Shown here: positions 9,311 to 63,287 of the stretch, in pieces
How the letters are laid out: every line of letters begins with the position of its first letter
Position numbering within the stretch: position 1 is the first letter of the stretch
DNA from: Pempheris klunzingeri
Lineage: Eukaryota > Chordata > Actinopteri > Acropomatiformes > Pempheridae
NCBI RefSeq assembly: GCF_042242105.1
Contig: NC_092027.1
Location: 67,501-131,500 of the forward strand
DNA: 64,000 bases
Direction: 5' to 3'
Position numbers and translations under genes: made by a program
Notes under the pieces: generated by a model
Seen by the model: the letters and a program-made list of their open reading frames with translations, nothing else
Databases searched by the model: none
Told to the model about the DNA's origin: nothing

Positions 9311-9362
<52 letters not shown>

Positions 9363-9903: not shown

Positions 9904-9934
<31 letters not shown>

Positions 9935-10353: not shown

Positions 10354-10384
<31 letters not shown>

Positions 10385-16849: not shown

Positions 16850-17799
16850 GTACACCGGAAATGTAGTCTATGTGGCAGAAGCGTCTCGTCGTTGTGGCGG
16901 TAAGTGTTTCTCTGCCGTTACTGTTAACCCGTATCACAGAGTCCGGGACCGGTAGGTACATAGACTGTTGAACCGGAGAATCAAAGACCGGGACCCGGGA
17001 CCCCAGCCCGGTCTGCAGTCTGTCTGCCGGTATGCTAACTTTAGCCGCTAGCCGGCAGAGTAGCTGGTAGCATGCTAGCCGGAGGAGAGCAAACTGCAGC
17101 CAGATGGGGGCCGGTAGGGGCCAGTTTACCGGACTGAACACACGATAACTCCCCGCTGAGAGAACGACGAGCTGTTCGCTAACACTTAGCCGCTAACAGT
17201 CACTGTACTGTTGGCAGCTAGCTGCACTCAGCCTCATGATCGGTCAGTTCACATCCTTTGATTTCAAACCTCCGACAGTAAATAAAGGAGTTAAAATGAG
17301 CTCGTTAAAGTTCCAGTAAACGGAGCCCCGTTACTTCCTGTCAGACCGGTACTGTTTATTAACGGTGTCAGACCAGGATCTGGACCGGTACCAGGATCAG
17401 GACAGGGATCAGGGTCAGGCGGGTCCAGTTGTTAGAATATTAATAGATCCAGTCCAGGTGTGGCACAGATCAAGTACAGATACTAACAATCACTTAGTGA
17501 TCGATCAGGTCACAGTGACGTCCACCCTTAAAGGGACCTGAATGCTGTGCAGGGTCCGGATCTGACGGTGCAGGGTCCGGCTGGTACCGATAGGGATCAG
17601 AGTTCTTCATGTAACCTCTGGCAACATGATCACGTGTCAGTCTGACGGGTCGGTCGGGTCATTCGCCAAACGCTGGACTTTGACCTTTAGTCAGATGGTC
17701 AGGTGACAGGTCAGGTGGGCATCTGACGTCGATCACATGGCGGTAACGTGACTGTGATGATGTCACTGTGTCACAGGTCAGAGGTCATGTATCTTCACG
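16850..17799 (+). promoter_or_regulatory. GON4L promoter, non-coding exon 1 and intron 1 (inferred)
   Basis: GATGACGTACACCGGAAATG at about 16844-16863 combines a CRE-like TGACGT with an ETS-type CCGGAAAT. The downstream sequence GTTGTGGCG/GTAAGTG gives a strong donor at 16899/16900. A matching acceptor, TGTCACAG at about 17770-17777, precedes the GON4L ATG at 17800. I infer a 5' UTR exon ending at 16899 and a roughly 0.88-kb intron. Confidence 0.5.
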
Positions 17800-29686
<11,887 letters not shown>

Positions 29687-37500: not shown

Positions 37501-39913
37501 AAGACAGCCTAGCTCTAATTACACACAGGTCATGAACAGGCCAACACAGCATTGAAAAGTACTAATAAGTCACGCAGACCAACACAGGGAAAATACCTCA
37601 AGTTAATACACATAAACTTAAGATCTTGATAATAAATATGGAACATGTAGCAATAAACTTACTTATTGTCAAAACGCACACAAAAACTAGGAATGATAGT
37701 TCTCCGTGTCTGCTATCGTCCCCAAGCACGAACAACTGGGCAGCGTGCTGCATCCACTGTTCACGTGCGGTTCACATGATGAGACGTTCAAGCGCATCTG
37801 GGAAATCCTAGCACTAAGCAAATAGGCTTTCGGACAATACAGGTAATACACAGGTAACATACAGGTTACATACAGGTAATACACAGGTTTACACACAGGT
37901 AACACACAGGTAACACACAGGTTACATACAGGTAACATACAGGTAATACACAGGTAACACACAGGTAACACACAGGTAACACACAGGTTACACACAGGTA
38001 ACACACAGGTAACACACAGGTTACACACAGGTAACACACAGGTAACACACAGGTTACACACAGGTTACCTACGGGTAACATACAGGTAACATACAGGTTA
38101 CACACAGGTAACACACAGGTAACACACAGGTAACATACAGGTAATACACAGGTAACACACAGGTTACATACGGGTAACATACAGGTAACACACAGGTAAC
38201 ACACAGGTTACACACAGGTTACATACGGGTAACATACAGGTAACATACAGGTAATACACAGGTAACACACAGGTAACACACAGGTAACACACAGGTTACA
38301 CACAGGTTACATACGGGTAACATACAGGTAACATACAGGTAATACACAGGTTACACACAGGTTACACACAGGTTACATACGGGTAACATACAGGTAACAT
38401 ACAGGTAATACACAGGTTACACACAGGTTACACACACATGACACAGGTTACATACAGGTTACATACGGGTAATACACTTGAACACCTGCAGCGCATTTTT
38501 TAAAGCCCCGCCTCCTGTGTCTGGTTGCCAGGGTGATGAAGGTGGCGTCTAAATACACTGAGCGGGGCCTGATGTTCTCAGTAGCCAATAAAAGGGACTT
38601 CCTGTCTGAGCTGGAGGACGACTTCGGTCTGGGGACGTCAGACGGAGGAGGGCTGCCTTTCATCACCATCCGGACCAAACTGGGCCACAAGTACACCATG
38701 AGAGAGGAGTTCACGTACGTACCCAGGCCGAACCAGTCCAAGCCAGGCTGAACCAGGCTGAACTAGGCTGAGCCAGGCCAAACCAGGCTAAGAACCTGAT
38801 AGAGGAGCAGTAGGTAACCCGCTGGTGGTTGTGTGTTGCAGGAGGGATGGCCGGTCCTTGGAGAGGTTTCTGGACGATTACTTTGCAGGTCGACTGAAAC
38901 GTTTTGTGAAGTCTGAGCCCGTACCTGAGAGGAACTCTGCTGCTGTCAAGGTGAGACGAACACCAGACACACCTGGAGGTCAAACTGACCCACAAAACAA
39001 AACAGGAGTCTGATTGGATGGAAGTCAATGAGAAAATGAGCCACCTTCTCTCCTGATTTATCAGCTCAGTGAACACTTTCTGGTCTCAGTCTCTAGTTTA
39101 CAGTCTTCAGCTCAGACAGGTGTGTGGTGTCTGCAGGTGGTTGTGGCCGAGTCGTTTGATGACATCGTCAATGATCCAGATAAAGACGTTCTGATCCAGT
39201 TTTACTCTCCGTCCTGTCCACACTGCAAGAAACTGGAGCCGGTTTACACGGAGCTGGCGCACACAGTATGTCCCTCATCTTCATCTTCATCCTGGATGAA
39301 AAAGGTTTCGTCTGTTCTGTCATTTCCAAACCTCCTCCTTTACTTCTGTCCATCAGCTGTACTCTGAACCCAACATCGTCATCGCCAAGATGAACGCCGC
39401 CGACAACGACGTGCCGCTGGGTTACGACGTCCACGGGTGAGAAGAGCACGTTCATCTTCCACATGTTACTGTTGGTTAGCGTGAAGGAGGACGCTGGCTG
39501 ACTGTGTGTCTCCTCAGGTATCCCACCATCTTTCTGGCTCCAGTGGGCAGGAAGGACGAGCCAATCAGATACGAGGTAACAGCGGCGCTCTCACTCACCT
39601 TAAAGTTCACGGTAATGTTGTAGTAAGAACTCTGGACTCTGCAGGTGTAGTACATTAGTAAATTTGTAGTAAATTCATTCATTTCACTGAAAACCATCCA
39701 GGTGACCTCATGAAGCTGAGAACACCTGGAACAAAGTATCGCCCCATACCTGGCGGTCACATGACATCTGACGGGTATGTGACGGCTGATGGCGTCTGGT
39801 GGTCACGTGACGTGTCGTCTGTGTTCCAGGGGGGTCGGGAGCTGAAGGACTTCATGAGGTTCCTGAAACGTGAGGCCAGACTGATGTCCGGCGGGTCAAA
39901 GGACGAACTCTGA
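31565..39913 (+). CDS. PDIA3/ERp57-like protein disulfide isomerase with KDEL tail
   Basis: Secretory-pathway thiol oxidoreductase. Exons: 31565-31728, 34034-34112, 36206-36323, 36391-36498, 36598-36727, 36821-36934, 37034-37159, 38532-38714, 38842-38950, 39137-39265, 39357-39436, 39518-39575, 39830-39913; 1482 nt, 493 residues, close to PDIA3's usual 505. A signal peptide spans about 1-25 ([20 protein letters not shown]...). The a domain has FYAPWCGHCKK (Cys56, Cys59). The b domain has [16 protein letters not shown] and [17 protein letters not shown], diagnostic of ERp57-type PDIs. The a' domain has [11 protein letters not shown] (Cys404, Cys407), so the usual Trp-Cys-Gly-His-Cys became Ser-Cys-Pro-His-Cys. 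The C-terminus SGGSKDEL is a canonical ER-retrieval signal. The Lys-rich tail of mammalian PDIA3 is absent. I call it PDIA3-like because human PDIA3 is on 15q, not in this synteny block. No symbol is assigned. Confidence 0.92.
31830..34020. repeat. CATCCCTTCATC minisatellite filling PDI intron 1
   Basis: About 2.2 kb of 12-15-bp units (CATCCCTTCATCATCCCTC, CATCTTCCTC, CATCCTCCTC). It is strongly strand-asymmetric (C+T plus A, almost no G) and ends about 10 bp before the acceptor CTTCCTCAG at 34025-34033. A 746-codon open frame (31808-34048) results from unit lengths that are mostly multiples of three; it is not considered a gene. Confidence 0.97.
34113..36185. repeat. CTTCATCACCTTTACCA minisatellite filling PDI intron 2
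   Basis: Starts at the donor itself (AAAG/GTATCACCTTCATCACC) and continues for about 2.07 kb in 9-18-bp units that are multiples of three: CTTCATCAC, CTTTACCAC, CTTTACCAT. Both strands are open for over 700 codons (Ser-Pro-rich on plus, Gly-Asp-Glu-Lys-rich on minus). The acceptor is CTGTCTCAG at 36197-36205. Confidence 0.97.
36935..37033. repeat. Short CACCTGCCTGTCTCT repeat in PDI intron
   Basis: Five degenerate copies of TCTCACCTGCCTGTC fill the 99-bp intron after the donor CAT/GTGAGTCC. Confidence 0.85.
37160..37212. repeat. Donor-derived CAGGTAACACAC copies, part 1
   Basis: The donor AACAG/GTAACACACGG of PDI exon 37034-37159 is followed by ACACAGGTAACATACAGGTAAC copies, then interrupted by unrelated sequence. 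Confidence 0.9.
37213..37835. other. AT-rich insertion interrupting the donor-derived array
   Basis: Non-repetitive AT-rich block of about 0.62 kb lying between two parts of the same array (37160-37212 and 37836-38475). It carries GGATGCGAACACTAAGGACA near its left end. I see no convincing coding sequence or terminal repeats. It is probably a mobile-element insertion of unknown type. Confidence 0.45.
37836..38475. repeat. Donor-derived CAGGTAACACAC array, part 2
   Basis: About sixty 10-11-bp units ACACAGGTAAC / ATACAGGTAAC / ACACAGGTTAC / ATACGGGTAAC. Each GTAAC form presents CAG/GTAAC, the same core as the real exon-7 donor. Confidence 0.96.
38735..38790. repeat. AGGCTGAACC short repeat
   Basis: Five degenerate copies of CCAGGCTGAA just after the donor of PDI exon 38532-38714. 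Confidence 0.8.
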
Positions 39914-43172: not shown

Positions 43173-45730
43173 ATGTTCGGCCAGCAGGTTTTAGTGCTCA
43201 GTGAGTATCAGGAAAACACCCAAAAGCGTCCGTCTGTCTCGGGGGCCGGTACCGTCTCCGTTCTGTGGCCGCATACCGTCGGCGTGGCCCGGCTGCGACA
43301 CAAAGCGGAGAGCGGAGAGCGGGCGGCGGAGCATGTGCTGCCGGGGTGCTAACCAGGCTAACTGTTAGCATCGGGGCTCATAGACAACGAGCTAACGGCT
43401 ACGTCCTGCCGGGGTTAGCGCCGTTAGCTCCTGTGTTCAGAGGCAACGGAGAGCGTGGCCAGATGCTAAGCTAAGCTGCTTTATCCTCATTACTCAGCAT
43501 GAACATGTAGCTAGCTTCAGGCCTGCCCGCTCATCAGTGTGTATTTAAAGCTGAAGCGTCAGTTAGCGGTTAGCTGGACTACAGACACCCGGTTATAATG
43601 TGTTCATGTCCAGTTTAACACAGGCTACACGTGAGGCTGTTTATGAGGGCAATACCTACAGCAGAGCGGAATCTCCATCTGTGTTTGAGCTGCTACAGTA
43701 GCACTGTGAGCTAACATTAGCACTGTGAGCTAACATTAGCACTGTGAGCTAATAGTGTAATGAGGCAGCCACACCTTCACACACTGATTTCCTGTCATGG
43801 TGAGGTATTGGAGAGTTAGTGGTTTCTGTGTGTGGTGTTAACTGTCTCTGGTGTTGGTGGACATCCTGACATGATGTCCACAGGACTGAGGGCGGTTTTA
43901 TCATTCCGTTTTTTTCCTAATTAATCAAAGTCTGCAGAGGTCAGTAAGTTTAACTAAATTCTGGTACGTCTGCGAGCAGCTCTGTTGACTTCATTATTTC
44001 ATCAGCAGGTGAGGAGGAGTGTGTGTGTGTGTGTGTGTGTGTCCGTCCTGAGCTTCACTTCCTGTCTTCATGTCTCTGCAGACCAGAACATTAAGAGAGA
44101 GTCGGGACGCAAAGTCCAGACCGGAAATATCAACGCCGCTAAGGTCAGTGTGTGCTCTACAGGAGAATGTTCTGGGTGGGGCCCCAATTAGGTTGATGGG
44201 TAACCATGGTGCTGGGTATCACCACTGGTTACCATGGTTACCAGTGCCCAGATTTCATGACTGTTCCAGCTGTGAATCAGGTTTGATCAGGATGAACCTG
44301 GAGCCGCCAATCAAACCATTGTGTGTGTGTGTGTGTTTCAGACCATAGCGGATGTGATCCGGACTTGCCTCGGCCCGCGGGCCATGATGAAGGTGAGAGT
44401 TTGGTGTCTCTTTGGTTAAACCAAAAGGAACCTAAACCACAGATTACCACGGTGGGTTAGTTAACTAATCTATGTGTGTGTGTAGATGTTGCTGGACCCC
44501 ATGGGGGGAATCGTGATGACCAACGATGGGAACGCCATCCTCAGAGAGGTGAGACAGTTATGTTTTTACTCACCTGGACCTCATTGGGTTAATCGGTGTC
44601 ACTGACCACCTGCGTCTCCCTGACAACAGATCCAGGTTCAGCATCCCGCCGCCAAGTCCATGATCGAGATCAGCCGTACGCAGGACGAGGAGGTGGGAGA
44701 CGGGACCACGTCGGTCATCATACTTGGTGAGACCACATGGGACCAACACGTTATCCATAAGTTATTGATACGTAATTCATACTACGTTATTGATTCGTTA
44801 TCGATGTTTTCCTATCAGGTGAATCCTCATCAGCTTTCAGCTCCAAATTGGTTATTTGGTTGTCAGCGAAACCTCGATCAGTTTGTTGAACATTCAGTTT
44901 AGCTGACTGTGTGTGTGTGTGTGTGTAGCGGGAGAGATGCTGGCCGTGGCAGAGCAGTTCCTGGAGCAGCAGATGCACCCGACGGTGATCATCAGCGCCT
45001 ACCGACAGGCTCTGGAGGACATGCTGGAGACGCTCAAGGAGATCAGGTGCTCACACAGGATTTTATTGTGAAAGGGCAGCAGGACGTCGCTGTTGGTGTT
45101 AACGTGGGAATGCTAATGCTAACACTGTGTCGTCCCCAGCACCCCTGTGGACACGGCGGACCGGTCCATGATGCTGAAGATCGTCCACTCAGCCATCAAC
45201 ACCAAGGCTCTGAGCCGCTGGTCTGAGCTGGCTTGCAGCATCGCGCTGGACGCTGTCCGCACCGTGGAGCTGGACGACAACGGCCGCAAAGAGATCGACA
45301 TCAAGAAGTATGCTAAAGTGGAGAAGGTACTGTCCCTTCCTTTCTGACATCATTGGCGGCCCGGCCCCCATGGAGCCTCACTTCCTGTAACCACGCCGTG
45401 CTGTGTTTAGGTTCCAGGCGGGATCATCGAGGACTCGTGCGTCCTGAAAGGCGTCATGATCAACAAGGATGTGACGCACCCGAGGATGAGACGCCTGATC
45501 AAAGGGCCACGCATCGTCCTGCTGGACTGTTCTCTGGAGTACAAGAAGGGCGAGAGCCAGGTAATACACACCTGACCACGCACACACACATCTCAGAGGT
45601 AGAGCAGGGCGTTCAGGAGGTCATACACAGCTGGCCAGCATGATGATGTTCATCATCTTGAGTCTGTCTGACTTCACAGTCAAACACCTTAAATATCCAG
45701 TCAGCACCCAGTCAAAGTGTGTGTGTGTGT

Positions 45731-45764
<34 letters not shown>

Positions 45765-47562
45765 CGGACATAGAGATCAGCAAGGAGGAAGACTTTGCAA
45801 GGATCCTGCAGATGGAGGAAGAGTACATCCAGCAGATCTGTGAGGACATCATCCGCCTCAAACCAGACCTGGTCTTCACTGAGAAAGGCATCTCAGGTAC
45901 ACACACACCTGGATCACACTTGTGTCAGGCTCGGGTATCAATGAACCTTTATTTATACAGCGCAAATTCTTAACAAACATGATCTCAGACTGTTTCCTTA
46001 AAGGGTCCGTGTTGGGTGTTTCCTGGTAATTTTACCCAGAGGAAATAATATCAGTTCCAGTTCCGAACCATTAGAAAAGGAAGACGCCTGCTTATGTCGT
46101 TATGACATCATGATGATGTCATCCCTCCCTGTGTGCTTCCTGTCTGTCAGATCTGGCTCAGCACTACCTGATGAAGGCAAACATCACTGCCATCCGCCGC
46201 GTGAGGAAGACTGACAACAACCGCATCGCCAGGTAACCAGGTCATGTGTTTCTCCTGCAGCAGACACGGGGCGTGCGAGGTTCACACTCCTAACTCTCTC
46301 TCTCTCTCTCTGTGTCAGGGCATGCGGGGCTCGTATCGCCAGCCGGACTGACGAGCTGCGTGAGGAAGACGTTGGTCTGGGGGCGGGGCTGTTTGAGGTG
46401 AAGAAGATCGGCGATGAGTATTTCACCTTCGTCACCGAGTGTAAAGACCCCAAAGCCTGCACCATCCTGCTGAGGGGCGCCAGCAAGGAGATCCTCGCCG
46501 TGAGAACACGCTTCATTTACTCACATCCTCCTCCTGCACTCTTTGGACAGACGCAGCGTTCCGTCAGTCAGCGTTCCGTCAGTCAGTCAGTCAGTCAGCA
46601 TTCTGTCAGTCAGTCAGCGGTCCGTCCATCAGTCAGCATTCTGTCAGTCAGTCAGCGGTCCGTCCATCAGTCAGCGTTCCGTCAGTCTTCACCAGCTCCT
46701 CTTGGACCAGTTCACATTGAACCCGTCTCCTCGTTCACATCAGTCCAGTTTACTGTGAACTGCTTTAGTCGATGACGCTGACCGACCCTTAAACACACCA
46801 CATTCACCTGACAGGGAGCCACGTGAGGCGTTCACGGCCCTCTGTGTCTGACGCTGTGTGTGACCTACAGGAGGTGGAGAGGAACCTGCAGGACGCCATG
46901 CAGGTGTGCCGTAACGTGCTGCTGGACCCCCTGCTGCTGCTGGGCGGCGGCGCCGTGGAGATGGCGGTGTCGAAGCGTCTGGTGGAGCGTTCACGCGCCC
47001 TGACGGGCATCGAGCAGTGGCCGTACCGTGCCGTGGCCCAGGCCCTGGAGGTGATCCCCCGCACGCTGATCCAGAACTGTGGAGCCTCCACCATCAGGGT
47101 GCTGACCTCACTGAGGGTGGGAAACTTTATTCACACTGACAGGAACTTTATTTATGACAACCTTGATGCCGAACGTTGTTTCCAGTATTGATGAGTTATT
47201 GATCGTGTGTGTGTGTGTCAGGCCAAACACACCCAGGAGGGCGGGCTGTGCTGGGGGGTGGACGGTGAGACCGGCTGTCTGTCTGACATGAAGCTTCTGG
47301 GTATCTGGGAGCCGCTGGCTGTCAAGGCTCAGACCTACAAGACGGCCGTGGAGGTCAGAACCCACACGGATCGATCACTATTGGTTATTGATCACTATTG
47401 ATCCTGATCACTTAATGCTCCCTGTTACTCCCCTCTCTGTCTCTCTCTCTCTGTCTGTCTCTCTATCAGACGGCCATCTTGTTGCTGCGTATTGATGACA
47501 TCGTCTCTGGTCACAAGAAGAAAGACAAAGATGATCAGACAGGAGGACATGGAGCCGAGTAG
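43173..47562 (+). CDS. cct3: T-complex protein 1 subunit gamma (CCT3)
   Basis: One of eight subunits of the cytosolic chaperonin TRiC/CCT, which folds actin, tubulin and other proteins in an ATP-driven double ring. Exons: 43173-43200, 44082-44143, 44342-44392, 44486-44548, 44630-44726, 44929-45046, 45140-45326, 45411-45560, 45764-45896, 46151-46232, 46319-46499, 46871-47116, 47222-47353, 47470-47562; 1623 nt, 540 residues (human 545). Start MFGQQVLVL. Group II chaperonin motifs: [18 protein letters not shown] and [11 protein letters not shown] near 40-70, nucleotide-binding [12 protein letters not shown] near 95, KISG-equivalent segments, and [17 protein letters not shown] near 405. The end [15 protein letters not shown] is a charged tail of the usual type. 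In human 1q22 CCT3 lies close to GLMP, as here. No defect seen. Confidence 0.97.
43680..43755. repeat. CACTGTGAGCTAACATTAG short repeat
   Basis: Three copies of the 19-bp unit in CCT3 intron 1. Confidence 0.9.
43844..43957. repeat. Inverted repeat, right arm (pairs with 42529-42641)
   Basis: GTCTCTGGTGTTGGTGGACA ... AGTAAGTTTAACTAA; it lies in CCT3 intron 1, 644 bp after exon 1. Confidence 0.93.
45940..46010 (-). mobile_element. Degenerate LINE 3'-end fragment
   Basis: TTTATTTATACAGCGCAAAT and TAACAAACATGATCTCAGAC resemble 21200-21250 in the longer copy. It sits in a CCT3 intron. Confidence 0.6.
46552..46695. repeat. GCGTTCCGTCAGTCA repeat in CCT3 intron
   Basis: Eight or so 15-28-bp units built from CAGTCAGC and GTTCCGTCAGT after the donor of exon 46319-46499. 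Confidence 0.9.
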
Positions 47563-47593
47563 GTCCACGTCGGTCCACATCCATGTCAGAGTC

Positions 47594-47631
<38 letters not shown>

Positions 47632-47642
47632 TGTGTGTGTCT

Positions 47643-47688
<46 letters not shown>

Positions 47689-48387
47689 CACACGACTCAC
47701 TGAAACTGTCATTAAAGTCATGAAGTTAGAACCTGGTTGTGGTCTCTGGTTTCCTCCTGTAAAGGACTGGGGGGGCAGATCGGGGGGTGGGGGGGGGCAG
47801 GAGAGGCTCATCAACACAAAACCTTCTCATAAGTTTGGTCGAGTGTTTCTTTAAACTTCTGTTGTAAATGTGTGTTTGTTGCTGATCACATGATCCATGA
47901 TGTCGACCCAGTTCTGGTTTCATCTGAACTCGGTCCGACTCTTTAACCTTTTAAGATCAACAGAATTATTTGAAGATGACTCTGTCACTTCTGGACTAAA
48001 TGGCCACGTGATGAATTCCCACTAAAGATGAAGCGTTCAAGTCAGACGTGAGGAAATGATCGTGGAAATCAGGAAGTTTGGATTTCAGACCATTAAATCT
48101 GCTAACTTCTTCAACATGTGAACACATGAATGTTTTGGATCAAATGAATCGCTGATAAAAGGACCCTGTTCACATTTCTGATGAATCTTGAACAAACCGC
48201 TCTGAACTGAATAAAAATAATGAAATAATCAGATTCAGCTCCAAGTCTCATTTTAGAGGAAAAACGTGTCTGACTGCGGCTGTTGATAAAGTTATTTAGA
48301 GAGCCGTGACGTAGCGGGGCGGGGTCCGAGGGCGGTCAGCTGACATATGAAGGAACGGGTCATGTGACCTGCTCAGTCACAACAAAG
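47563..48387 (+). other. CCT3 3' UTR and GLMP promoter
   Basis: A GT/CT microsatellite occupies about 47597-47686. ATTAAA near 47711 is a candidate CCT3 polyadenylation signal. The last 90 bp hold a GC box (GGGGCGGGG, about 48315) and two GTCANNTGAC E-boxes described separately. No other gene seen. Confidence 0.6.
48335..48368 (+). promoter_or_regulatory. Paired GTCANNTGAC (CLEAR-like) E-boxes before GLMP
   Basis: GTCAGCTGAC at 48335-48344 and GTCATGTGAC at 48359-48368, 24 bp apart start to start, the second ending 19 bp before the GLMP ATG. The TFEB/TFE3 CLEAR consensus is GTCACGTGAC, so both keep the flanks and differ in the centre. Confidence 0.5.
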
Positions 48388-51300
48388 ATGGCGGCAGCGG
48401 GGAAGGAGCGGAGCGGCCGCGTTTGTTCTCTGGTTCTTCTCCTGAGTGTCTCCGGTTTGATCCGCGGAGCAGACGCGACGGAGCGGACGGTGAGGAAGAC
48501 ATCCGGGTATTACACCCGACTAATTATGGTGGATCTGAGCGGTGATCGATCTATTGTGATTAAAGTCACGGCGGAAACAGTTTAACAGTTCACTTCCGGT
48601 TTGCAGCTCCGACAGAAAGTCTTCGAAATGTTTTCGCTGCTTCGTGATTTAAACTTTGATTTCTATTTTATTATGAAACAAACGGAACAGGAAGATGTTT
48701 CGAAAAAATTCCGATTTCATTTTACTCTAAACTAAACTTTGGTGGTTTAAGGTTTCATGTCCGTTACTGCAGTAAAAGTAGTGGTCATACTAGGCTGCAG
48801 TACCTTTACTGCAGTATTGGCACTAATTCAGTAGTACTAATACTTTGACTGTGGTAAAAGTACTCGGATACTTTCCTCCTCTGGTAACTTTAATTTGAAG
48901 TTTCTGCTTTTCTGTCACGTCATGTTTGACCCAATCAGCAGCTGATCAATAGTTCACTGGACTGATTAGATGATTGATTACAAATAAATGAGGTTTCTAT
49001 TTGAAAACAATCAACTGATTAAAATGAGGAATTGTTATAAACTTTATTGATCATCAAGACAAACAGAAGTTCAAAGATGATTGGTGATCAGTTTCTTCTT
49101 CTGCAAAACGAGCTGCCAATCAATCCGTCAGTATGTCCATCAGTGTTTGATCCCAGGTGACTGATGGTCTGTTTCTTCTTCTCTTCCGCAGTTGTCGGTA
49201 GAGTTGAACCCTGGCTCGCCGTCGCCGCCTCCTGGTGGCGACCTACTTCATGTGAGAGCCGTGGGAAACAATGACACACTTCACTTCCTGTTCTGCAGTC
49301 AGGGGGCGCCGACGCTGCTGCTCGTCCACACCGACATCACTTCCTCTACAATCCAGGTCGATTCAGCGCCGCATGAAGCTAACGATGCTAACAGATCACC
49401 TGACCTTGTTCATGAAGCTTGTTAATGCGTTAAATTGCTCAGTCGTCATGACAACAGATAAACGAGAAGAACAAGCTGCAATCAAACAGTCATGTGATCG
49501 CTGAGGGGGAACGGCCTTCATCCCAGCAGCAAAACGTCTTGCTGTTGGGTTCCTAATAATCTGACTACCGTCTGTCTGGAGACACGGACAACAAATGTAG
49601 AGCCTAGTGGAACCTTACGTAGAACTCATCCATCCGTTTTCTTCCTCTTATCTGGGGTCAGGTCGCCATGTCAGCAGGCTGATCAGGACGCTCCAGACGT
49701 TCTTCTCCTTAGCAGCTCCTGGGGGAACCCGAGGCCATGAGGAATTCCTCCAGAGAGTTCTGGGTCTGCCCCGGTGAACCTCCAAAGGGAGACGCCCAGG
49801 AGGCATAGTGGAACCTAACGTAGAACAAATAGCACCAGTAGAACCATGCTATTCAGATTAATCTCAGTCTGTCTCCCTCCTCGCCGCCGCGTCTCCCCTT
49901 TGTATTTGACTGTTTTAATCTCATTCGGTTCCACCAGTTCTCTCTCAGAACTAATTTAAACCGAGCGTTAGCCTTGATACATTTATGTCTAACTGACCTT
50001 GGTGTTCGCTAAGGGGCGAGCCAGCTGTTTTATTATTATTGTTAGATTTATTTTGATAGCACTTTCCACAAAACTGAGAACTGAGAAACAAATGAACCCA
50101 CATTTATTCCCTGTCTCACCTCCAGAGTGCAGCACATAGCGTAGCATCGTAACTTAGCATATTCATTTATTGTTTCTACTCGTCTTTCCCATTCGCTGGT
50201 TATCACGTGTTTTGAAACAGGAAGTGATGGTCGACCAATGAGCCAATCATCAATGAGGAGCAGCCATGTTCATTGATCTGACCTCGGAGATGTGGCTTCT
50301 GATTGGTTGATACCTGCTCTGAGGATTGCACCTGATTAAATCCTCTGGTGTTTCTCTCTCAGGTGAACTGGACTCAGTTTGAGGCACGTAACCACAGCAA
50401 CAGCCTTAAGGTGGAGCCAGAGAGCAGTATCCTGTACAGTGCCGCCATCGTCTTCACCAGGGTCAGCAATATCCACCTTAAATCACTCTGTCCCCCTTAA
50501 ATCTACTATCATCACTCTGTCCCCCTTAAATCTACTATCCTCACTCTGTCCCCCTTAAATCTACTATCATCACTCTGTCCCCCTTAAATCTACTATCCTC
50601 ACTCTGTCCCCCTTAAATCCACTATCCTCACTCTGTCCCCCTTAAATCCACTATCCTCACTCTGTCCACCTTAAATCTACTATCCTCACTCTGTCCCCCT
50701 TAAATCTATCATCACTCTGTCCACCTTAAATCCTTAAATCTACTATCCTCACTCTGTCCCCCTTAAATCTACTATCATCACTCTGTCCACCTTAAATCCT
50801 TAAATCTACTATCCTCAGTCTGTCCCTCTTAAATCTACTATCCTCACTCTGTCCACCTTAAATCTACTATCCTCACTCTGTCCACCTTAAATCTACTATC
50901 CTCACTCTGTCCACCTTAAATCTACTATCCTCACTCTGTCCACCTTAAATCCTTAAATCCACTATCCTCACTCTGTCCCCCTTAAATCCACTATCCTCAC
51001 TCTGTCCACCTTAAATCTACTATCCTCACTCTGTCCCCCTTAAATCTACTATCATCACTGTCCACCTTAAATCTACTATCCTCACTCTGTCCCCCTTAAA
51101 TCTACTATCCTCACTGTCCACCTTAAATCTACTATCCTCACTCTGTCCCCCTTAAATCTACTATCCTCACTCTGTCCCCCTTAAATCTACTATCCTCACT
51201 GTCCATCTTAAATCTACTAAATCACTGTCCACCTTAAATCTACTAACATCACTCTGTCCCCCTTAAATCTACTATCCTCACTGTCCACCTTAAATCTACT

Positions 51301-53652
51301 ATCCTCACTCTGTCCCCCTTAAATCTACTATCCTCACTCTGTCCACCTTAAATCTACTATCCTCACTGTCCATCTTAAATCTACTAAATCACTGTCCACC
51401 TTAAATCTACTAACATCACTCTGTCCACCTTAAATCTACTATCCTCACTCTGTCCACCTTAAATCTACTAACATCACTCTGTCCACCTTAAATCTACTAT
51501 CCTCACTCTGTCCACCTTAAATCTACTAAATCACTGTCCACCTTAAATCTACTAACATCACTCTGTCCACCTTAAATCTACTATCCTCACTCTGTCCACC
51601 TTAAATCTACTAACATCACTCTGTCCACCTTAAATCTACTATCCTCACTGTCCACCTTAAATCTACTATCCTCACTCTGTCCCCCTTAAATCTACTATCC
51701 TCACTCTGTCCACCTTAAATCTACTATCCTCACTCTGTCCACCTTAAATCTACTATCCTCACTCTGTCCACCTTAAATCTACTAAATCACTGTCCACCTT
51801 AAATCTACTAACATCACTCTGTCCACCTTAAATCTACTATCCTCACTCTGTCCACCTTAAATCTACTATCCTCACTCTGTCCACCTTAAATCTACTAACA
51901 TCACTCTGTCCACCTTAAATCTACTAAATCACTGTCCACCTTAAATCTACTAACATCACTCTGTCCACCTTAAATCTACTATCCTCACTCTGTCCACCTT
52001 AAATCTACTATCCTCACTCTGTCCACCTTAAATCTACTAACATCACTCTGTCCACCTTAAATCTACTATCCTCACTGTCCATCTTAAATCTACTAAATCA
52101 CTGTCCACCTTAAATCTACTATCCTCACTCTGTCCACCTTAAATCTACTATCCTCACTCTGTCCACCTTAAATCTACTATCCTCACTCTGTCCACCTTAA
52201 ATCTACTATCCTCACTCTGTCCACCTTAAATCTACTAACATCACTCTGTCCACCTTAAATCTACTATCCTCACTCTGTCCACCTTAAATCTACTATCATC
52301 AGATGTAACTAGCTCTCTGATGTCACTGCGGCTCTGTGATGTCAGCAGCGTTCTCCTGTTAAAAAACCGCGGTCGGTGAAATATTGGTGACCACAGATGG
52401 TGTTTTGTGTGGAACCCACCTGTTGGTTCCACCTGATGGCTTTGACTGACACGTTCCCTTTAGAACGCGAGCTCTGACTTCCTGTTTGCTGTCTCAGTTG
52501 TTGGAGTACGACGACGTTAATGACACGGCGGTGCCGACCTCTGACCTCTTCCCGCCCTATGAGCTGCAGAGCTTCACCTGGTCTCGCCTGAACCTGTCCG
52601 GGCCCGTCGCCCTGCTCTGTGGCGCCTCCCCGACCTTCACCAACGGGTCGCTGTGCCTGCAGGTCAGACCCACAGCTCGGCTGTCTGTTCCCATCGTGAT
52701 GTCATCAACCCGTGATGACACCGTCAGCAGGGGACCGATGGCTGTTCAGGACCTGTGATCGGTGTCAGACGTCTACGGACCGGCCCTTTAATCAGCCTTT
52801 TTTCCCTTCCAGCTGTCTGTGTTTGAGTCGGAGGGACGCGGTCGGTCCTGGCCCCGCCTCCTCCACACGGCTAACTCCTCCCAGCTGGAGGTGTGGCTCG
52901 ATGGCGTGTCGCCGCGGGCAACTCGTTCAAGGTTCCTATTGGAGGTGCAAGCGGTGGGCGGGGCTTATCCTCTGAGCAAAGTGGAGGTTCGTCGATCCAT
53001 TGACGACGAGTTCACGCCATCGATATTCCAGGTGACCAATCAGAAACGGGCGTCTGTGGATGTGACCCGGTTTAACCCTCGCTAACCTGCTGACCTTTGA
53101 CTCCTCAGGTGACTCACTGGGTTCCGTCGGTGAACAGCAGCTCTGACGTTCCGGGTTTCATCCAGTGGAAGCCGGTGGCGTACCGGCGCTCTGATCCAGC
53201 TCTGGAGGACGCCACGCCGTGCCGACACTCCAACCCGCGGCCTCAGAGCGGTGAGGCGGTGGCGGTGGCGTCCGGTCTGATCAGAGCATTCTACACAGAA
53301 CCCAAAACGTTTGGACTCAATGTGAGCTTCGGCCTTGCAGGAGAACCGTTCTACAACAGCACCAAGTTCCTCCGCTGGTCTGTGGCTCTTTAATGAGATG
53401 AAGTTAATGATGTTTATGTTAATGAGTTTCCACTGATGGCGTGGAACATGACCTCTTCCTCTTGGCGCCCCCTGCAGGACGCTGCTGGTCGGCTCCGGCT
53501 CTCCTCCTGTCGACGCCTTCTCTCCCTTGGTTCTCAGCATGATGGCGGTCGGGCTGGGAACTCCCATGATCCTCCTGCTGCTGGGCGGAGTCTGTGTCTG
53601 CATCCGTAAGAGGGCGACGGCCTCGACGACCAACTATGAGCCAATCAACTGA
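48388..53652 (+). CDS. glmp: Glycosylated lysosomal membrane protein (GLMP / NCU-G1)
   Basis: Type I lysosomal membrane protein; in mammals GLMP is the accessory subunit that stabilises the transporter MFSD1. Exons: 48388-48489, 49192-49356, 50363-50461, 52498-52662, 52813-53031, 53109-53377, 53478-53652; 1194 nt, 397 residues (human 406). Signal peptide about 1-28 (SLVLLLSVSGLIRGADA). Family blocks: LLHVRAVGNNDTLHFLFCSQ, SILYSAAIVFTRLLEYDD, RLLHTANSSQLEVWLDG, SIDDEFTPSIFQV and IQWKPVAYRR. Several N-glycosylation sequons (NDT, NWT, NHS, NDT, NLS, NGS, NSS, NVS, NST). One transmembrane segment near 358-380 (LVLSMMAVGLGTPMILLLLG), then a short tail ending NYEPIN. YEPI is a YxxPhi lysosomal sorting signal, as human ends YQSIN. 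A 1.8-kb minisatellite fills intron 3. Confidence 0.96.
48490..49191 (+). other. GLMP intron 1
   Basis: About 0.7 kb of mostly AT-rich unique sequence between the donor ACG/GTGAGG and the acceptor TCTTCCGCAG. No internal gene or transposon seen. Confidence 0.75.
49627..49815. mobile_element. Dispersed repeat of the fish TTATCTGGGGTCAGGTCG type
   Basis: CATCCGTTTTCTTCCTCTTA, TCTGGGGTCAGGTCGCCATG and, later, CTCCAAAGGGAGACGCCCAG, with GGAGGCAT following, are typical of a very abundant fish interspersed repeat. Degenerate and non-coding; family not assigned. It is in GLMP intron 2 (49357-50362). Confidence 0.65.
50470..52300. repeat. CACTCTGTCCACCTTAAATC minisatellite in GLMP intron 3
   Basis: About 65 copies of a 27-30-bp unit (CTGTCCACCTTAAATCTACT + ATCCTCACT). 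It starts about 10 bp after the donor ACCAGG/GTCAGC. Variants CCC/CAC, ATCATC/ATCCTC and AACATC define subtypes whose proportions change along the array. Confidence 0.97.
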
Positions 53653-54365
53653 TGGCGGAATCACAGCCAATCAGAAGGCAGATACTTTTTTTTTAAGAGT
53701 TCTGAAGACTCGCTGATGACGGACAGGATGCATGACTGATCCAGCCAATCAGGGCCCAAGAGACTCATTTTATTTCCTTGTTTTTAATGAGACTAATTGT
53801 TTTTAAAGTATTACAATAATTCTGCTAATTGTTCCTTTAAAATCATTAAATTTTCTTTGTGTTGTCACTTCCTGTCCGTGGCGCTTTGGTCTAAAGGTCG
53901 ACCAGTGAAAATATTCCACATGCAGCCTCCACATGTAAACTAACTTTCGTTTTATTAGTTGCGTCTTGTTTTCGGGAGGGTTACCCCCCCCCGGCTCCTG
54001 ATTGGACCATTCTACCTGACAGGTGACTGACGAGACTTCACACCTTTCACTTTCTCTTTATTCATTCAGAAACAAACAAAATGATTCAAACAGGTAGGAC
54101 CCACCTGCTGCTGCGTTTGACCGACAGGTAAAATCATCCAGACACCGACCAATCGGAGGAGGCTCTGATCATGACATCATCACCTGAAGGGGGTCCAGCT
54201 GTTTGTTTGTTAATCTGTTTTAAATAAAGTTGAGGATAAAGACAATCAGTCCAGTTCTCTGCAGGTTCCTTTAATCCTCACAGTCCAGATCACTTTAAAA
54301 TACTACTGCAGGACGAGGACCACACACAGGTCCAGGTCCAGGTCCGGTTCCTGGTCTCCGCCTTC
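53653..54365. other. Convergent 3' regions of GLMP (+) and JTB (-)
   Basis: Plus-strand polyadenylation candidates: ATTAAA at about 53846 and AATAAA at 54223-54228. Minus-strand candidate: TTTATT at 54057-54062 on the plus strand. If the distal GLMP signal and the JTB signal are both used, the transcripts overlap by about 170 bp or more. No other gene here. Confidence 0.5.
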
Positions 54366-55265
54366 CTAGATGGACTCGATCTGGCGGCGAACCTTCTCAG
54401 AGGCGAGGCGGTCCAGCGAGCGCTGACGAACTACTACTAGGATGGCGAAGAGAGCCGTCAGAGCCAACATGGCCGCCTCAAACTTCCAAAAGAGATGTTC
54501 CTCCATCACGGCGGAGCGACAGCTGGGAGGGGGGATAAACAGAATGAATAAATACCGAACGTTTCCTACTCGGCTCATTGGAGGGACAGCGGAGCGGCTA
54601 AGAGGCCGTCGGCGCCCCAGTGGTGTTCTGACCTCTTGTACTCGTCCCGGTTAGATCGGGTGCAGTTGACTCGCTCCACGTATCCCGTCGGTCCGCAGGC
54701 CGACCACGACCTCTGAAACACAACAACCGCTCCGTCACGCACACACTGCTGCCGTTGTCATAACAACCACATGCCGTTTTCAGAATTCTCCAGGAATTCA
54801 AGGTCGTGGAACGTTTGTGGTTTGGACACTTACGGTCTGGAAGGCGTTACACTGAGAGCACTCCGTGGTCACCACAAACTCCTCCAGCAGCCAGCAGGGG
54901 GCCACCACAGTCTTCACCGCTGGGGGGGGGAGGGGAGGGGGTCAGAGGTCACTGAGACACATTAAATATGAAACTTTCTGATTGGTCTTTTATTTCCCAG
55001 CAGTCTTTGCTGCGGCAGGTGTCTCACCTGTAGTTTTGACGTCACTCAGTAGAGCCGCTCCAAACACCCTGAAACACACAGTCCAACCATCAGTCCTGGT
55101 TCTGCTATTATAAAATAGCCTGCAGAACCCCTGAAGGACCGGTGGAACCTGTAGAACCTCTACACTACAGACTGACCTGAGGGACACGAGGCCCCAGAAC
55201 AGCACGTGGAGGACGAGGACTCGAGGCCGACAGCAGGCCACCGGGATCCGACAGTCGCTCTCCAT
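54366..55265 (-). CDS. jtb: JTB (jumping translocation breakpoint protein)
   Basis: Small type I membrane protein, reported in humans to act in mitochondria, midzone cytokinesis and apoptosis. Minus-strand exons in order: 55265-55177, 55068-55028, 54919-54834, 54712-54633, 54522-54366; 453 nt, 150 residues (human 146). Signal peptide-like N-terminus (VLVLHVLFWGLVSLR). Luminal cysteine-rich block APCWLLEEFVVTTECSQC, then CGPTGYVERVNC and KSCRSAVMEEHLFWKFEAA. Transmembrane segment near 114-134 (AMLALTALFAILVVV), then the family C-terminus RQRSLDRLASEKVRRQIESI, almost identical to mammals. Start chosen at 55265 because further upstream reading loses the signal-peptide context. Divergent from the region to its right; convergent with GLMP. 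Confidence 0.96.
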
Positions 55266-58603: not shown

Positions 58604-59817
58604 ATGTATGAAACACCTGTTCTCCAGACCTCAGACATCCTGTAAGGATCCCATATGAAACAGGAAATAAGAAATGTCACTATCAAAATAAGAGTAGTGG
58701 GGTTCTCTGTGAGTTGAAGCTCCTCCATGAAGTTCCAGAGTTTGGTGAAGAGGAATAAGGTCAAAGTTCGGTTGTGTTTTCAGGAATTTATTGTGCAGTA
58801 AAAATCATGTTCTCCGTATAATAATCATGTTGATGTTCATTCAGGGAAATGATCAGATTTAGAACAAGTGAGCAGCTCTGATGATCTATCGACGAGATCA
58901 CCGTCTTAAATGTTCATGTTGGTTCTGTTGGTGTTCTGTTGTTCTGTTAGTGTTCTGTTGGTGTTCTGTTAGTGTTCTGTTGTTCTGTTAGTGTTCTGTT
59001 GGTGTTCTGTTGTTCTGTTAGTGTTCTGTTGGTCTGTTAGTGTTCTGTTGTTCTGTTAGTGTTCTGTTGGTGTTCTGTTGTTCTGTTGGTGTTCTGTTGT
59101 TCTGTTAGTGTTCTGTTGGTCTGTTAGTGTTCTGTTGTTCTGTTAGTGTTCTGTTGGTCTGTTGGTGTTCTGTTGTTCTGTTAGTGTTCTGGTGTTCTGT
59201 TGGTGTTCTGGTGTTCTGTTAGTGTTCTGTTGGTGTTCTGTTGTTCTGTTAGTGTTCTGGTGTTCTGTTGGTGTTCTGTTGTTCTGTTAGTGTTCTGTTG
59301 GTGTTCTGTTAGTGTTCTGTTGGTGTTCTGTTGTTCTGTTGGTGTTCTGTTGGTCTTCTGTTGTTCTGTTAGTGTTCTGTTGGTGTTCTGTTAGTGTTCT
59401 GTTGGTGTTCTGTTGGTCTTCTGTTGTTCTGTTAGTGTTCTGTTGGTGTTCTGTTGGTCTTCTGTTGTTCTGTTAGTGTTCTGTTGGTGTTCTGTTGGTC
59501 TTCTGTTGTTCTGTTAGTGTTCTGTTGGTGTTCTGTTAGTGTTCTGTTGGTCTTCTGTTGGTCTTCTGTTGTTCTGTTAGTGTTCTGTTGGTTCTGAACC
59601 TCCAAACACACTCCCTGATGGAGGCAACAGCAGACATCCTTGGATGGAACAGGTGGGTAATAACCATGACCAGAAATCGATCTGATTGATCTGTTTTATT
59701 GATCGATATGTTTACCGTCCGTCTGTTGAGGAAGACCATGCCGTTCCACTGAGAGCTCCACAGCAGCTACTACATGATTATTATCATTACTGTCTTCGTA
59801 CACAGCTCCTCCTCACT
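58604..59817. other. 3' flank of the CART-like gene
   Basis: Minisatellite at 58918-59595 (listed separately). The minus-strand polyadenylation signal AATAAA is at 59700-59695 (TTTATT on the plus strand), about 120 bp past the CART-like stop, giving a compact 3' UTR. No other gene seen. Confidence 0.6.
58918..59595. repeat. GTTCTGTTAGTGTTCTGTTG minisatellite
   Basis: Units of 10-11 bp (GTTCTGTTGGT, GTTCTGTTAGT, GTTCTGTT, CTTCTGTTG) arranged in higher-order blocks over about 680 bp. Confidence 0.96.
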
Positions 59818-60666
59818 TCACAGACTGTGGATGAAGAAATGGGAACACCTGGACCCACGAGGACACCGGCACACCTGCACAGGTGTCTTCTGGCTCCGCC
59901 CCCTCCAACAGTACTTCTCCAGGTTACACTGAAGGGGGGGGGGGGGTTAGTTCATTATTGTTAGTAGTAGAAGTATGTTTTGGAGCAGATTAACTCTCTC
60001 TGGCTGTCTCTCTCTCTGCCTGTCTGTCTCTCTGTTACCAGGATGGTGATTCTTCTTCTCTTCAGGCGCCGACAGATTCCAGGAAGTCTCCTGTTCCTCA
60101 ATGACGTGACAACGTTTGAGTTCTCAAAGACGTCGACCTGAAGAACACAAAGACCCAGATCAACAATAGAGCACCTGTCCTCCCGTGCACCTCTCCACCT
60201 GTCTTCCTGTCCTCCTGTCTTCCTGTCCATCTGTCTTCCTGTCCTCCTGTGCACCTCTCCACCTGTCTTCCTGTCCTCCTGTCCACCTCTCCACCTGTCT
60301 TCCTGTCCTCCTCTCCACCTGTCTTCCTCTCCACCTGTCTTCCTGTCCTCCTCTCCACCTGTCTTCCTCTCCACCTGTCTTCCTGTCCTCCTGTCCACCT
60401 GTCCTCCTCTCCACCTGTCCTCCTGTCCTCCTCTCCACCTGTCTTCCTCTCCACCTGTCTTCCTGTCCTCCTGTCTTCCTGTCCACCTCTCCACCTGTCC
60501 TCCTGTCCTCCTCTCCACCTGTCTTCCTCTCCACCTGTCTTCCTGTCCTCCTGTCTACCTGCAGCGGCGTCGTGGCCGGAGTGAAGTCGGGCAGACTGCA
60601 GTCCACCGTGTGCAGACAGATGCAGCCAATCAGCAGCAGGAACACGGCACATGCATCCGGCTTCAT
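59818..60666 (-). CDS. CART-like (cocaine- and amphetamine-regulated transcript-like) peptide precursor
   Basis: Secreted neuropeptide-type precursor of 105 residues in three exons (60666-60559, 60137-60039, 59928-59818), all phase 0. Exon 1 encodes a signal peptide (MKPDACAVFLLLIGCICLHT, cleavage likely near VDC). Exon 2 holds dibasic sites (RNRR, CRRLKRRR) suited to prohormone-convertase cleavage. Exon 3 is the cysteine domain. CNLEKYC matches CART's C-x5-C (CDAGEQC), CRCPRGSRC matches LCDCPRGTSC, and the end SHFFIHSL matches NSFLLKCL. Length, three-exon layout and a boundary just before the C-x5-C motif agree with CART genes as I remember them. The sixth CART cysteine is Ser here (AGT), while an additional Cys is present in exon 2 (LPGICRR). 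Splice sites are GTAGAC/TTCTTCAG and GTAACA/CCCTTCAG. CART peptides regulate feeding, stress and reward in fish brain; function here is inferred. Alternative: an unrelated small Cys-rich peptide. Confidence 0.75.
60176..60556. repeat. CCTCTCCACCTGTCTTCCTGT array filling CART-like intron 1
   Basis: About 35 units of 8-22 bp on the plus strand (TCTTCCTGTCCTCC, CTCTCCACCTGTC). On the gene strand these read CAGGTGGAGAGG and resemble the donor GCTGCAG/GTAGACAGG. The array begins at the donor (60558) and ends about 40 bp short of the exon-2 acceptor. Confidence 0.95.
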
Positions 60667-61192
60667 CTGTCAATCAGTCAATCAATCAATCAATCAATCA
60701 GTTAGTCAATCAGTCACCAGTTAATCAATCGTCTGCTCGCCCTCTCTCTCTGTCGTCTCGTCTGATCACTGAAACAGGAAACAATAATCCTCTTAGTTGG
60801 TTTAGGAGACACGTGATCAGGTGATGACATCATGCTGGTCTCCATGGAGATGTACCTGGTTAAATCTCACCTGGCTACATTCAGATCAGGTGACGTGACG
60901 TCAGCCTGCTTCCAGCTAGCATGCTAAGCTAACTTCTGTAGCTTTGTGTGGAGATGAGTCAGAGGTCAAAGGGGAGTTCTTCCTCCACTGTGATCACAAA
61001 CTCTGTCAACGGAACTTTTATTTTGAAAGCTGTCCCCGGAAGTGATGGCGGGTGTCTGACCGGGGGTCGGTCAGTGGAGGAAACCGTTAGCTGGACGGAA
61101 ACAGGGGCAGAAAACCGTGAGGGGGGAGCTCGGTGAGCAGAGCGCGGACGGACCGACACCGTGACCCGCTGGACGAGCGTCTGAACCCGGAA
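60667..61192. promoter_or_regulatory. Bidirectional spacer between CART-like (-) and zinc-finger (+) genes
   Basis: Contains an ATCA repeat at about 60672-60700, the palindromic CRE TGACGTCA at 60896-60903 and a GC-rich first-exon-like stretch at 61030-61192 for the zinc-finger gene. A TGACGTG half-site overlaps the CRE. No TATA box is evident. Confidence 0.5.
60896..60903. promoter_or_regulatory. Palindromic cAMP response element (TGACGTCA)
   Basis: Perfect 8-bp CRE, preceded by an overlapping TGACG half-site (60891). It lies 230 bp upstream of the CART-like ATG and about 290 bp upstream of the zinc-finger ATG. Mammalian CART promoters carry a functional CRE. Confidence 0.5.
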
Positions 61193-63287
61193 ATGGAGCC
61201 CAGAGGAGCAGGTTGGTTTCCGCTGGAGGCGGCTTCACTGCTCTGCTAACGATGCTAAGCTAACGTTAGCATTCACGGCCTTTGAGAATCATCACTAACG
61301 AACAGGTGATGTCATACTGAAGCACACCCGAGACACGTGGTCAGAGGATCGATCGATCACAAAGGTTAATCAATGATCTGAATCAGGGCAGACAGGGGCG
61401 GGACTTTTACTCTGAAAAACTAAACAGAAGCAGGAAACAAACACGTTCACTGAAACACAGAAATCAATAAAGCTGTGACCTCCTCCTGTCCTCCTTCTGT
61501 CCTCCTCCTGTCCTCCTTCTGTCCTCCACCTGTCCTCCTTCTGTCCTTCTCCTGTCCTCCTTCTGACCTCCTTCTGTCCTTCTGTCCTCCTTCTGTTCTC
61601 CTGACCTCCTTCTGTCCTTCTGTCCTCCTTCTGTTCTCCTGACCTCCTCCTGTTCTTCTGTCCTCCTTCTTTCCTTCTGTCGTTCTTCTGTCGTTCTTCT
61701 GACCTCCTCTTGTCGTTCTTCTGACCTCCTTCTGTCCTCCACCTGTCCTCCTTCTGTCCTCCACCTGTCCTCCTTCTGTCCTTCTCCTGTCCTCCTCCTG
61801 ACCTCCTTCTGTCCTTCTGTCCTCCTTCTGTTCTCCTGACCTCCTTCTGTTCTTCTGTCCTCCTTCTCTCCTTCTGTCGTTCTTCTGACCTCCTTCTGTC
61901 CTCCTTCTGTTCTTCTGTCCTCCTTTTGTCCTCCTGACCTCCTTCTGTTCTTCTGTCCTCCTTCTCTCCTTCTGTCGTTCTTCTGACCTCCTTATGTCCT
62001 CCTCCTGTCCTCCACCTGTCCTCCTCCTGTCCACCTGTCCTCCTTCTGTCCTCCTCCTGTCCTCCTTCTGTCCTCCTTCTGTCCTCCTCCTGTCCTCATT
62101 CTGTCCTCCTTCTGTACACCTGTCCTCCTTCTGTCCTCCACCTGTCCTCCTTCTGTCCTCCTCCTTCTCTCCTTCTGTCCTCCTTCTGACCTCCTCCTGT
62201 CCTCCTTCTGTCCTTCTGACCTCCTCCTGTCCTCCTTCTGTCCTCCCTCTGCTGGTCAACACTTCTGTCTGTCTGTGTTCCAGTTTCTCCTTCAGACATC
62301 CTCAAAGTGATCGTTATGAAAGAGGAGCAGCAGGACCCCCCAGAGCCCCCCCACATTAAAGAGGAGCAGGAGGACCCCCCAGAGCCCCCCCACATTAAAG
62401 AGGAGCAGGAGGAGGTCTGGACCAGTCGGCAGGGAGAGCAGCTTCAAGGGCCGGAGGAGGCTCATATCACCGAGTTCCCACTGACTCCTGTCCCTGTGAA
62501 GAGTGAAGATGATGAAGAGGAAGCTCAGTCCTCACAGCTTCATCACAGACACACTGAACACATGGAGACAGAAGCTGATGGAGAGGACTGTGGAGGACCA
62601 GGACCAGACAGGAACCCACATCCACGTGGACCCTTAGAGGCCGAGGACCAGACTGAAGACTCCTCAGAGACCGAGACTGAGGACAGTGAGGACTGGGAGG
62701 AGACCAGAGAAGCTCAGTCTGGGTCAAAGTCCCTGAAAAACACCAAAGTGAGGAGATGTTACATCGGCAAGAAATCATTTGTCTGCTCTGAATGTGGGAA
62801 AAGATTTAGTCAGATGGGAAGTCTGAAGAGACACCTGTCCATTCACACAGGGGAGAGACCATTTAGCTGCTCTGACTGTGGGAAAAGGTTTGACTGCAGG
62901 GGAAACCTGAAGAGACACATGAAAATTCACACTGGGGAGAAACCATTTAACTGCTCAGTTTGTGGTAAAAGATTCACACATCGGGCGAATGTGACACAGC
63001 ACATGGCCGTTCACACGGGGGAGAAACGGTTCAGCTGCTCCGTCTGTGGCCAGAGGTTCGCCTGGTCCACTCAGGTCAAAACTCACCGCTGTGACGGAGA
63101 GTCCTTGCCGCTGAACCAAGAGAAACCCTTCAGTTGCTCCAAGTGCAAGAAAACATTCAGCCGCAGTACAAACCTGAAGGCTCACATGAGAGTCCACACA
63201 GGAGAGAAACCATTCGGCTGCTCTGTCTGTCATCAGAGATTCACCTGGCATCATCAGCTCCAGACTCATACTGATGTTCGTCATTAG
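61193..63287 (+). CDS. C2H2 zinc-finger protein (fish multi-finger type), 2 exons
   Basis: Putative DNA-binding transcription factor. Exon 1 61193-61211 (MEPRGA) splices at G/GTTGGT to exon 2 62284-63287; total 1023 nt, 340 residues. A start inside exon 2 (ATG 62307) is the alternative. The acidic linker contains [12 protein letters not shown] twice, then [28 protein letters not shown] and [16 protein letters not shown], a hallmark of fish zinc-finger clusters. Six fingers follow. Fingers 1-3 and 5 are canonical C2H2 with TGE(K/R)PF linkers: [56 protein letters not shown]. Finger 4 ([21 protein letters not shown]) ends H-x-C and is followed by an irregular linker. The last ([24 protein letters not shown]) has lengthened His spacing. 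No KRAB, SCAN or BTB domain. The intron is largely a CT-rich minisatellite. Confidence 0.85.
61478..62255. repeat. TCCTCCTTCTGTCCTCCTCCTG array in zinc-finger intron
   Basis: Polypyrimidine 11-13-bp units (TCCTCCTTCTG, TCCTTCTG, ACCTCCTTCTG) over about 780 bp. The array ends about 28 bp before the acceptor GTGTTCCAG at 62275-62283. Confidence 0.96.

Follow-up and report, generated by a model that had tools for sequence, protein, structure and literature searches.

CART is an appetite peptide, characterised by brain expression and anorexigenic action. The CART genes of vertebrates (cart1-4 or CART1-6; Pfam PF06373, structure 1hy9) have three exons and encode precursors with a hydrophobic N terminus, basic cleavage-like sites within exon 2, and a third exon that starts at the first cysteine (C1) and specifies the spacing C-x5-C, the motif C-x-CPRGS-x-C and a terminal Leu. 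According to a 2026 paper (PMC13364575), every vertebrate CART has kept the six cysteines, here called C1 to C6, with Atlantic salmon cart4 as the one exception; the same paper states a IV-VI disulphide pairing and treats the question of the CART receptor as unsettled. A Cys75-Cys88 bond is given in PMC4436185. The salmon exception (XM_014141614), a teleost CART whose set of six cysteines is incomplete, has an mRNA that was detected only in a preoptic nucleus (PMC9828751).

A second point of reference is si:ch211-191i18.4 of Danio rerio; UniRef labels several of its relatives "cocaine- and amphetamine-regulated transcript protein". The zebrafish gene and its relatives share a cysteine near the end of exon 2 (C0) within the block RLPGxCRRL(K/R)RRR, five core cysteines, and mostly Ser or Thr at the place of C6. 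A literature search conducted mostly short of full text did not turn up the name, and met no account of the group apart from the remark on salmon cart4; as far as that search shows, si:ch211-191i18.4 has so far been annotated as a gene and not described as a group. One salmonid member, P0081 of Oncorhynchus keta, carries the name CART and has no C6, and Atlantic salmon cart4 may be the same gene as the one described here.

The window analyzed here, a stretch of 64,000 nucleotides from the fish Pempheris klunzingeri (NC_092027.1, positions 67,501 to 131,500), contains an ordinary percomorph-type member of this group, from which nothing essential sets it apart (Table 1). All three coding exons are in phase 0 and are bounded by GT donors and AG acceptors; joined, they make up 318 bases, or 105 residues and a stop codon. 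The first-pass annotation had assembled these minus-strand exons by hand, and its 105-residue precursor is borne out by translation, by phase and splice borders, and by a six-frame scan of the window with a profile of 65 relatives, which recovered exon 3 (E 1.3e-14) and exon 2 (E 7.8e-8) independently of the hand-built model. The same scan revealed no second CART-like gene above the inclusion threshold in the window, the next match standing at E 0.03. The exon 1 junction, between LQ and V, is also seen in many full-length relatives. As read from the sequence, the precursor begins with a hydrophobic N terminus and carries RNRR and RLKRRR within exon 2. The minisatellite of intron 1 happens to be open in frame with exon 1, producing a 169-residue open reading frame (60160-60669) in the mechanical ORF list, and such an in-frame open repeat is a trap for gene prediction.

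Table 1. Features of the CART-like gene and its neighbours, in window coordinates
Feature	Position	Strand	Description or basis
Exon 1	60666-60559	minus	108 bases; start codon, signal-peptide-like N terminus, propeptide start (MKPDACAVFLLLIGCICLHTVDCSLPDFTPATTPLQ)
Exon 2	60137-60039	minus	99 bases; propeptide and cysteine-bearing block (VDVFENSNVVTSLRNRRLPGICRRLKRRRITIL)
Exon 3	59928-59818	minus	111 bases; CART-like core, C1-C5, stop codon (CNLEKYCWRGRSQKTPVQVCRCPRGSRCSHFFIHSL)
Conserved stretch RLPGICRRLKRRRITIL	60039-60089	minus	block absent from human CART; C0; RLKRRR convertase-like site
C0 (Cys58), exon-2 cysteine, TGT	60074-60072	minus	aligned column in relatives
Ser104 (AGT), in the position of C6, the sixth cysteine of CART	59826-59824	minus	translation and alignment
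AATAAA, likely polyadenylation signal	59695-59700	minus	sequence, 3' of exon 3
Minisatellite, 40/80-base unit	60172-60561		fills almost all of intron 1 (60138-60558)
C2H2 zinc-finger ORF	62220-63284	plus	Pfam
JTB	54369-54650	minus	Pfam
NCU-G1 (GLMP)	52792-53082	plus	Pfam
TCP-1 exons	44624-44899, 46793-47188	plus	Pfam
Thioredoxin-domain exon	39032-39364	plus	Pfam

The window gene has the layout of a CART gene, with three coding exons, a first cysteine that opens exon 3, and an exon 2/3 junction at the same place as in CART. It differs from vertebrate CART in having Ser for C6, an extra C0 block at the end of exon 2, and a score below the Pfam cut-off: exon 3 reached 14.4 bits against PF06373, under the gathering score of 27, and PF06373 was not listed at all for the full protein. 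Many percomorph relatives differ further from CART by insertions between C2 and C3. Of the six cysteines expected in exon 3, C1 to C5 are present and C6 is Ser104, as the first-pass annotation had read from the AGT codon, and the IV-VI bond of CART is impossible in a protein without C6. That annotation had also named the second Cys of C-x-C (C4) as the CART partner of the missing residue, in agreement with the IV-VI and Cys75-Cys88 statements in the two papers cited above. A PDB search with the window protein gave human CART 1hy9 as its sole match up to E 10, at E 0.53. Alignment of exon 3 with its human CART counterpart gave a score of 55, which was reached in none of 2000 shuffles with the cysteines held fixed (mean 27, best 53) and in none of 2000 free shuffles (best 48).

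The affinities of the protein become clearer through its relatives. Three protein searches, which key on exact shared five-residue words and may thus miss members without the conserved stretches, returned 48, 113 and 74 relatives, 118 of them distinct. The named relatives among the 118 are all teleost, and many are labelled si:ch211-191i18.4 or CART; the 48 from the first search have 47-80% local identity to the window protein, and the third search, with its 74, contained no canonical CART and no non-teleost among the named rows. Going by their names, the relatives include osteoglossomorphs, elopomorphs, cypriniforms, characiforms, salmonids, pikes, smelt, cod and many percomorphs. Ten relatives were scanned against Pfam CART, and four passed the cut-off of 27, namely Arapaima P0096 (67 bits), Albula P0098 (57), Paramormyrops P0092 (56.9) and Oncorhynchus P0081 (32.4); four others scored 16.5-24.0 bits, and cod P0066 and Zoarces P0001 were unmatched. 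A six-row profile searched against the PDB matched CART 1hy9 and nothing else (E 4e-10). Together, the relatives that pass Pfam and the profile match to 1hy9 make the window protein's link to CART firm.

The E 0.53 match to 1hy9 and the sub-threshold Pfam score of the window protein, taken alone, could suggest a cysteine-rich secreted peptide that is unrelated to CART and has converged on it. This reading is scarcely credible, given that Arapaima, Paramormyrops and Albula match CART at E 2.5e-15 to 1.7e-18, over 62-68 of the 70 profile positions, and that the exon 2/3 junction of the window gene coincides with that of CART. The CART-like exon 3 and CART ancestry proposed in the first pass are upheld by both the shuffles and the Pfam-passing relatives; by profile the family does group with CART, although the window protein alone stays under the Pfam cut-off. 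Common descent is indicated by a chain of relatives that leads from the window protein to near-human cores, in a comparison with human CART and the Pfam CART profile. Since the window protein falls below the Pfam cut-off and lacks the six cysteines, it is, on the evidence of its sequence, best called a variant descended from CART.

The distribution of cysteines was followed in an alignment of the 118 relatives with the window protein (119 rows). C0 is Cys in 117 of the 118 relatives, and in 118 of 119 rows with the window protein counted, the exception (P0100) being a fragment without exon 2. Ninety rows, that of the window among them, are complete for C0-C5, and at the place of C6 these have S in 81, T in three, H in two, R in one, G in one and C in two. 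Non-Cys residues at C6 are therefore found in 88 of 90 complete rows, including those of zebrafish, carp, salmonids, cod and many percomorphs, and four elopomorph rows have S, H, H and R there. The two rows that keep C6, from Paramormyrops (P0092, ending LKCT) and Arapaima (P0096, a partial protein ending LKCL), are both osteoglossomorph and carry C6 together with C0. They depart at C6 from the pattern of the si:ch211-191i18.4 group, which the window protein shows in full: the RLPGxC-x-RL(K/R) block with C0, C1-C5, and a non-Cys C6. Counting from C0 on, there are six cysteines in 84 of the 90 rows, seven in the two osteoglossomorphs, and 9 to 12 in P0030, P0050, P0054 and P0109, which are odd gene models. 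At C4, 106 of the 119 rows have Cys and seven have a gap; the remaining six (P0091, P0097, P0101, P0105, P0112 and P0113) have some other residue, and in them exon 3 appears to be truncated or wrongly read. The 29 rows without one or more of C0-C5 were excluded from the C6 count, and on inspection they look like cut or misread gene models for the most part. Some public models (P0044, P0045, P0047, P0048, P0082, P0090, P0091, P0095 and P0097) have apparently been read through the exon-2 donor; they show Val at the place of C1, and C1 or the whole core is missing from the predicted protein.

These counts bear directly on what the absent last cysteine means. The first-pass annotation had noted that the AGT codon is one base from TGT, which implies a recent loss, and had offered the exon-2 cysteine as a new residue and a possible substitute partner. 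The cysteine is a candidate for that role and is present almost throughout the relatives; a recent loss of C6 is not supported, since nearly all complete rows lack it. The absent cysteine and the low Pfam score might also be read as marks of a paralogue that is decaying or recently damaged in this species, as the first pass had allowed. We regard this as very improbable: a non-Cys residue at C6 is shared, along with C0, by 88 of the 90 complete rows, the frame of the window gene is open and its splice borders are intact, and every column that is invariant in 65 relatives is retained in the window protein.

In a tree built from the window protein and 37 relatives, with the exon-3 stretch of human CART as outgroup, Arapaima branches off at the root and Paramormyrops next (support 92), followed by the elopomorphs (66), which are joined to all remaining rows (61); these remaining rows, neither osteoglossomorph nor elopomorph, group together with support 99. 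By parsimony, C0 would have been gained before C6 was lost, because both rows that keep C6 also have C0, an order that rests on the two rows from Arapaima and Paramormyrops. Alternatively, C6 may have been regained in osteoglossomorphs, or the rows from these fishes may represent a different paralogue.

Conservation along the precursor peaks in the C0 region, which exceeds even the CART core. Over 71 full-length rows selected for C0-C5, residues 53-69 (the C0 region) average 0.81 in pairwise identity, exon 3 0.57, the signal 0.29 and the propeptide 0.26. For the window protein against the others, the values in the same order are 0.83, 0.63, 0.37 and 0.33; the row selection and the word-based search inflate all these figures somewhat. 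That the C0 region surpasses the core speaks against decay, and also against a site that serves for cleavage and nothing else. Within RLPGxC, the R, L, P and C do not vary among the relatives and the Gly hardly does; the Thr that follows the basic run is nearly invariant too, and the basic residues of RLKRRR are conserved to a similar degree. In 88 of 90 rows, the sequence R-x-K/R-R occurs in the interval from C0 to C1. Exon 3 shows a mixture of constancy and change: as read from the alignment, the spacing C1-x5-C2 is found in 35 of 38 fish rows (x7 in the three salmonid and pike-like rows) and C3-x-C4-x5-C5 in 38 of 38. Gly/Arg/Ser-rich insertions of variable length lie between C2 and C3 in the percomorph rows P0020, P0028, P0034 and P0013.

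When human CART was aligned with seven fish proteins, five alignments (Arapaima, Paramormyrops, Albula, Synaphobranchus and zebrafish) contained a 13-residue gap at the same point, between VP and M; in the Oncorhynchus and window alignments, a gap fell in the fish protein instead. The Pfam coordinates also reveal extra residues, with 75 residues over 62 positions in P0096, 79 over 66 in P0098 and 80 over 68 in P0092, or 13, 13 and 12 extra. From this shared gap and these coordinates, exon 2 appears to have been extended by some 39 bases (about 13 residues) immediately ahead of the exon 2/3 junction, an extension that brought in C0 and the basic stretch. As the source of the block, a duplication within the protein of the upstream helix (VLDKLQKKRLSLL versus VCKRLRRRVITIL in Arapaima, 22 residues apart) was tried and is only weakly favoured: in a joint column permutation over six species, 104 of 3000 permutations were as good or better, and the signal was absent in Paramormyrops alone and in Conger alone. 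The other possible origin is a downstream shift of the exon-2 donor.

The neighbourhood of the gene offers some indication of which paralogue it might be. JTB, GLMP (NCU-G1) and the TCP-1 exons stand in a row (44624-54650), and their human counterparts are on 1q21-22; the upstream thioredoxin-domain gene resembles PDIA3, which is at human 15q15. Because CRTC2 adjoins CART genes and JTB is close to CRTC2 in human, the JTB neighbour would fit the CART5/CART6 locus. For the window gene, CART6 and a second CART5 are both possible identities. PMC4436185 is the source for CRTC2 adjoining CART genes, and also describes CART6 of tilapia as possibly lost. Long minisatellites lie on both sides of the gene (58911-59596 and 61479-62251), with 11-base units GTTCTGTTGGT and CCTCCTTCTGT. 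Further away, a 1480-residue ORF at 31827-36269 consists mostly of Ser/Pro repeats and looks like a minisatellite inside a PDI-like gene rather than a protein, and similar repeat-made ORFs occur at 9301-10935, 11797-13083 and 17761-20064.

We consider it probable, while allowing appreciable room for doubt, that the locus represents an intact and conserved CART-descended neuropeptide gene of teleosts in which C0 most likely replaces C6 as the partner of C4. Gene structure, homology and conservation are established by the results above. The sequence of events would begin with an ancestor whose exon 2 acquired, just ahead of its junction with exon 3, some 13 codons carrying C0 and the basic run. 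Seven-cysteine precursors, with C0 and the classic six, survive in osteoglossomorph fishes; with C0 present, C6 would have become dispensable and have disappeared, in one or more events, from the remaining teleosts sampled. Six cysteines are thereby kept in the peptide part, with C0 most likely bonded to C4, the second Cys of C-x-C, in place of C6, and with the C1-C3 and C2-C5 bonds unchanged from CART. The product would probably be secreted and would signal like CART, presumably through a receptor.

The disulphides might instead have been wholly reshuffled, for example with C0 bonded to C1 or C3, so that in a gene that still descends from CART the fold no longer amounts to the CART core of two bonds with a third one moved. 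We think this unlikely, although percomorph exon 3 is much changed, with its variable C2-C3 insertions and 57% mean identity. Two AlphaFold models were of low confidence and too poor to judge the pairing, and the first had no match when searched against the PDB. Against reshuffling stand the spacings kept in 35 of 38 (C1-x5-C2) and 38 of 38 (C3-x-C4-x5-C5) fish rows, and the near-human core of the seven-cysteine rows; this kept spacing and these near-human cores suggest that the other two bonds persisted through the change.

Any cut at RLKRRR, between C0 and C1, would under the C0-C4 replacement yield two chains joined by that bond. A branch of teleost CARTs that makes such a two-chain peptide, with the LPGxC block cut at RLKRRR and held by C0-C4 in place of C4-C6, and with osteoglossomorphs still making the seven-cysteine intermediate, is a tentative proposal that we rate as possible and no better than that. 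Insulin and relaxin are two-chain peptide hormones whose chains are held together by disulphides; the likeness would depend on RLKRRR being cut after the bonds form, the cleavage is hypothetical, and no homology is claimed. The same convertase-like site could, on the other hand, sever C0 from the core. C0 would then be unpaired within the peptide, staying in the propeptide or forming dimers, C4 would be free or would join chains, and the basic stretch would simply be the main cleavage site. We find this quite improbable, since a pure cleavage site has no need of the invariant RLPGxC residues and the nearly invariant Gly and Thr, and since C4 is retained even though its old partner C6 is gone.

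The six cysteines have been treated as defining CART, and a teleost-wide group breaks this rule in a consistent manner, with a conserved replacement cysteine. The seven-cysteine survivors and the C0 group provide a natural test of how disulphides can be rewired without loss of the peptide. For the search for the CART receptor, it is relevant that the C0 region, the best conserved part of the precursor, sits outside the classic core. If the two-chain proposal were true, a swap of disulphide partners in a vertebrate neuropeptide would be traceable step by step through the seven-cysteine intermediate of osteoglossomorph fishes.
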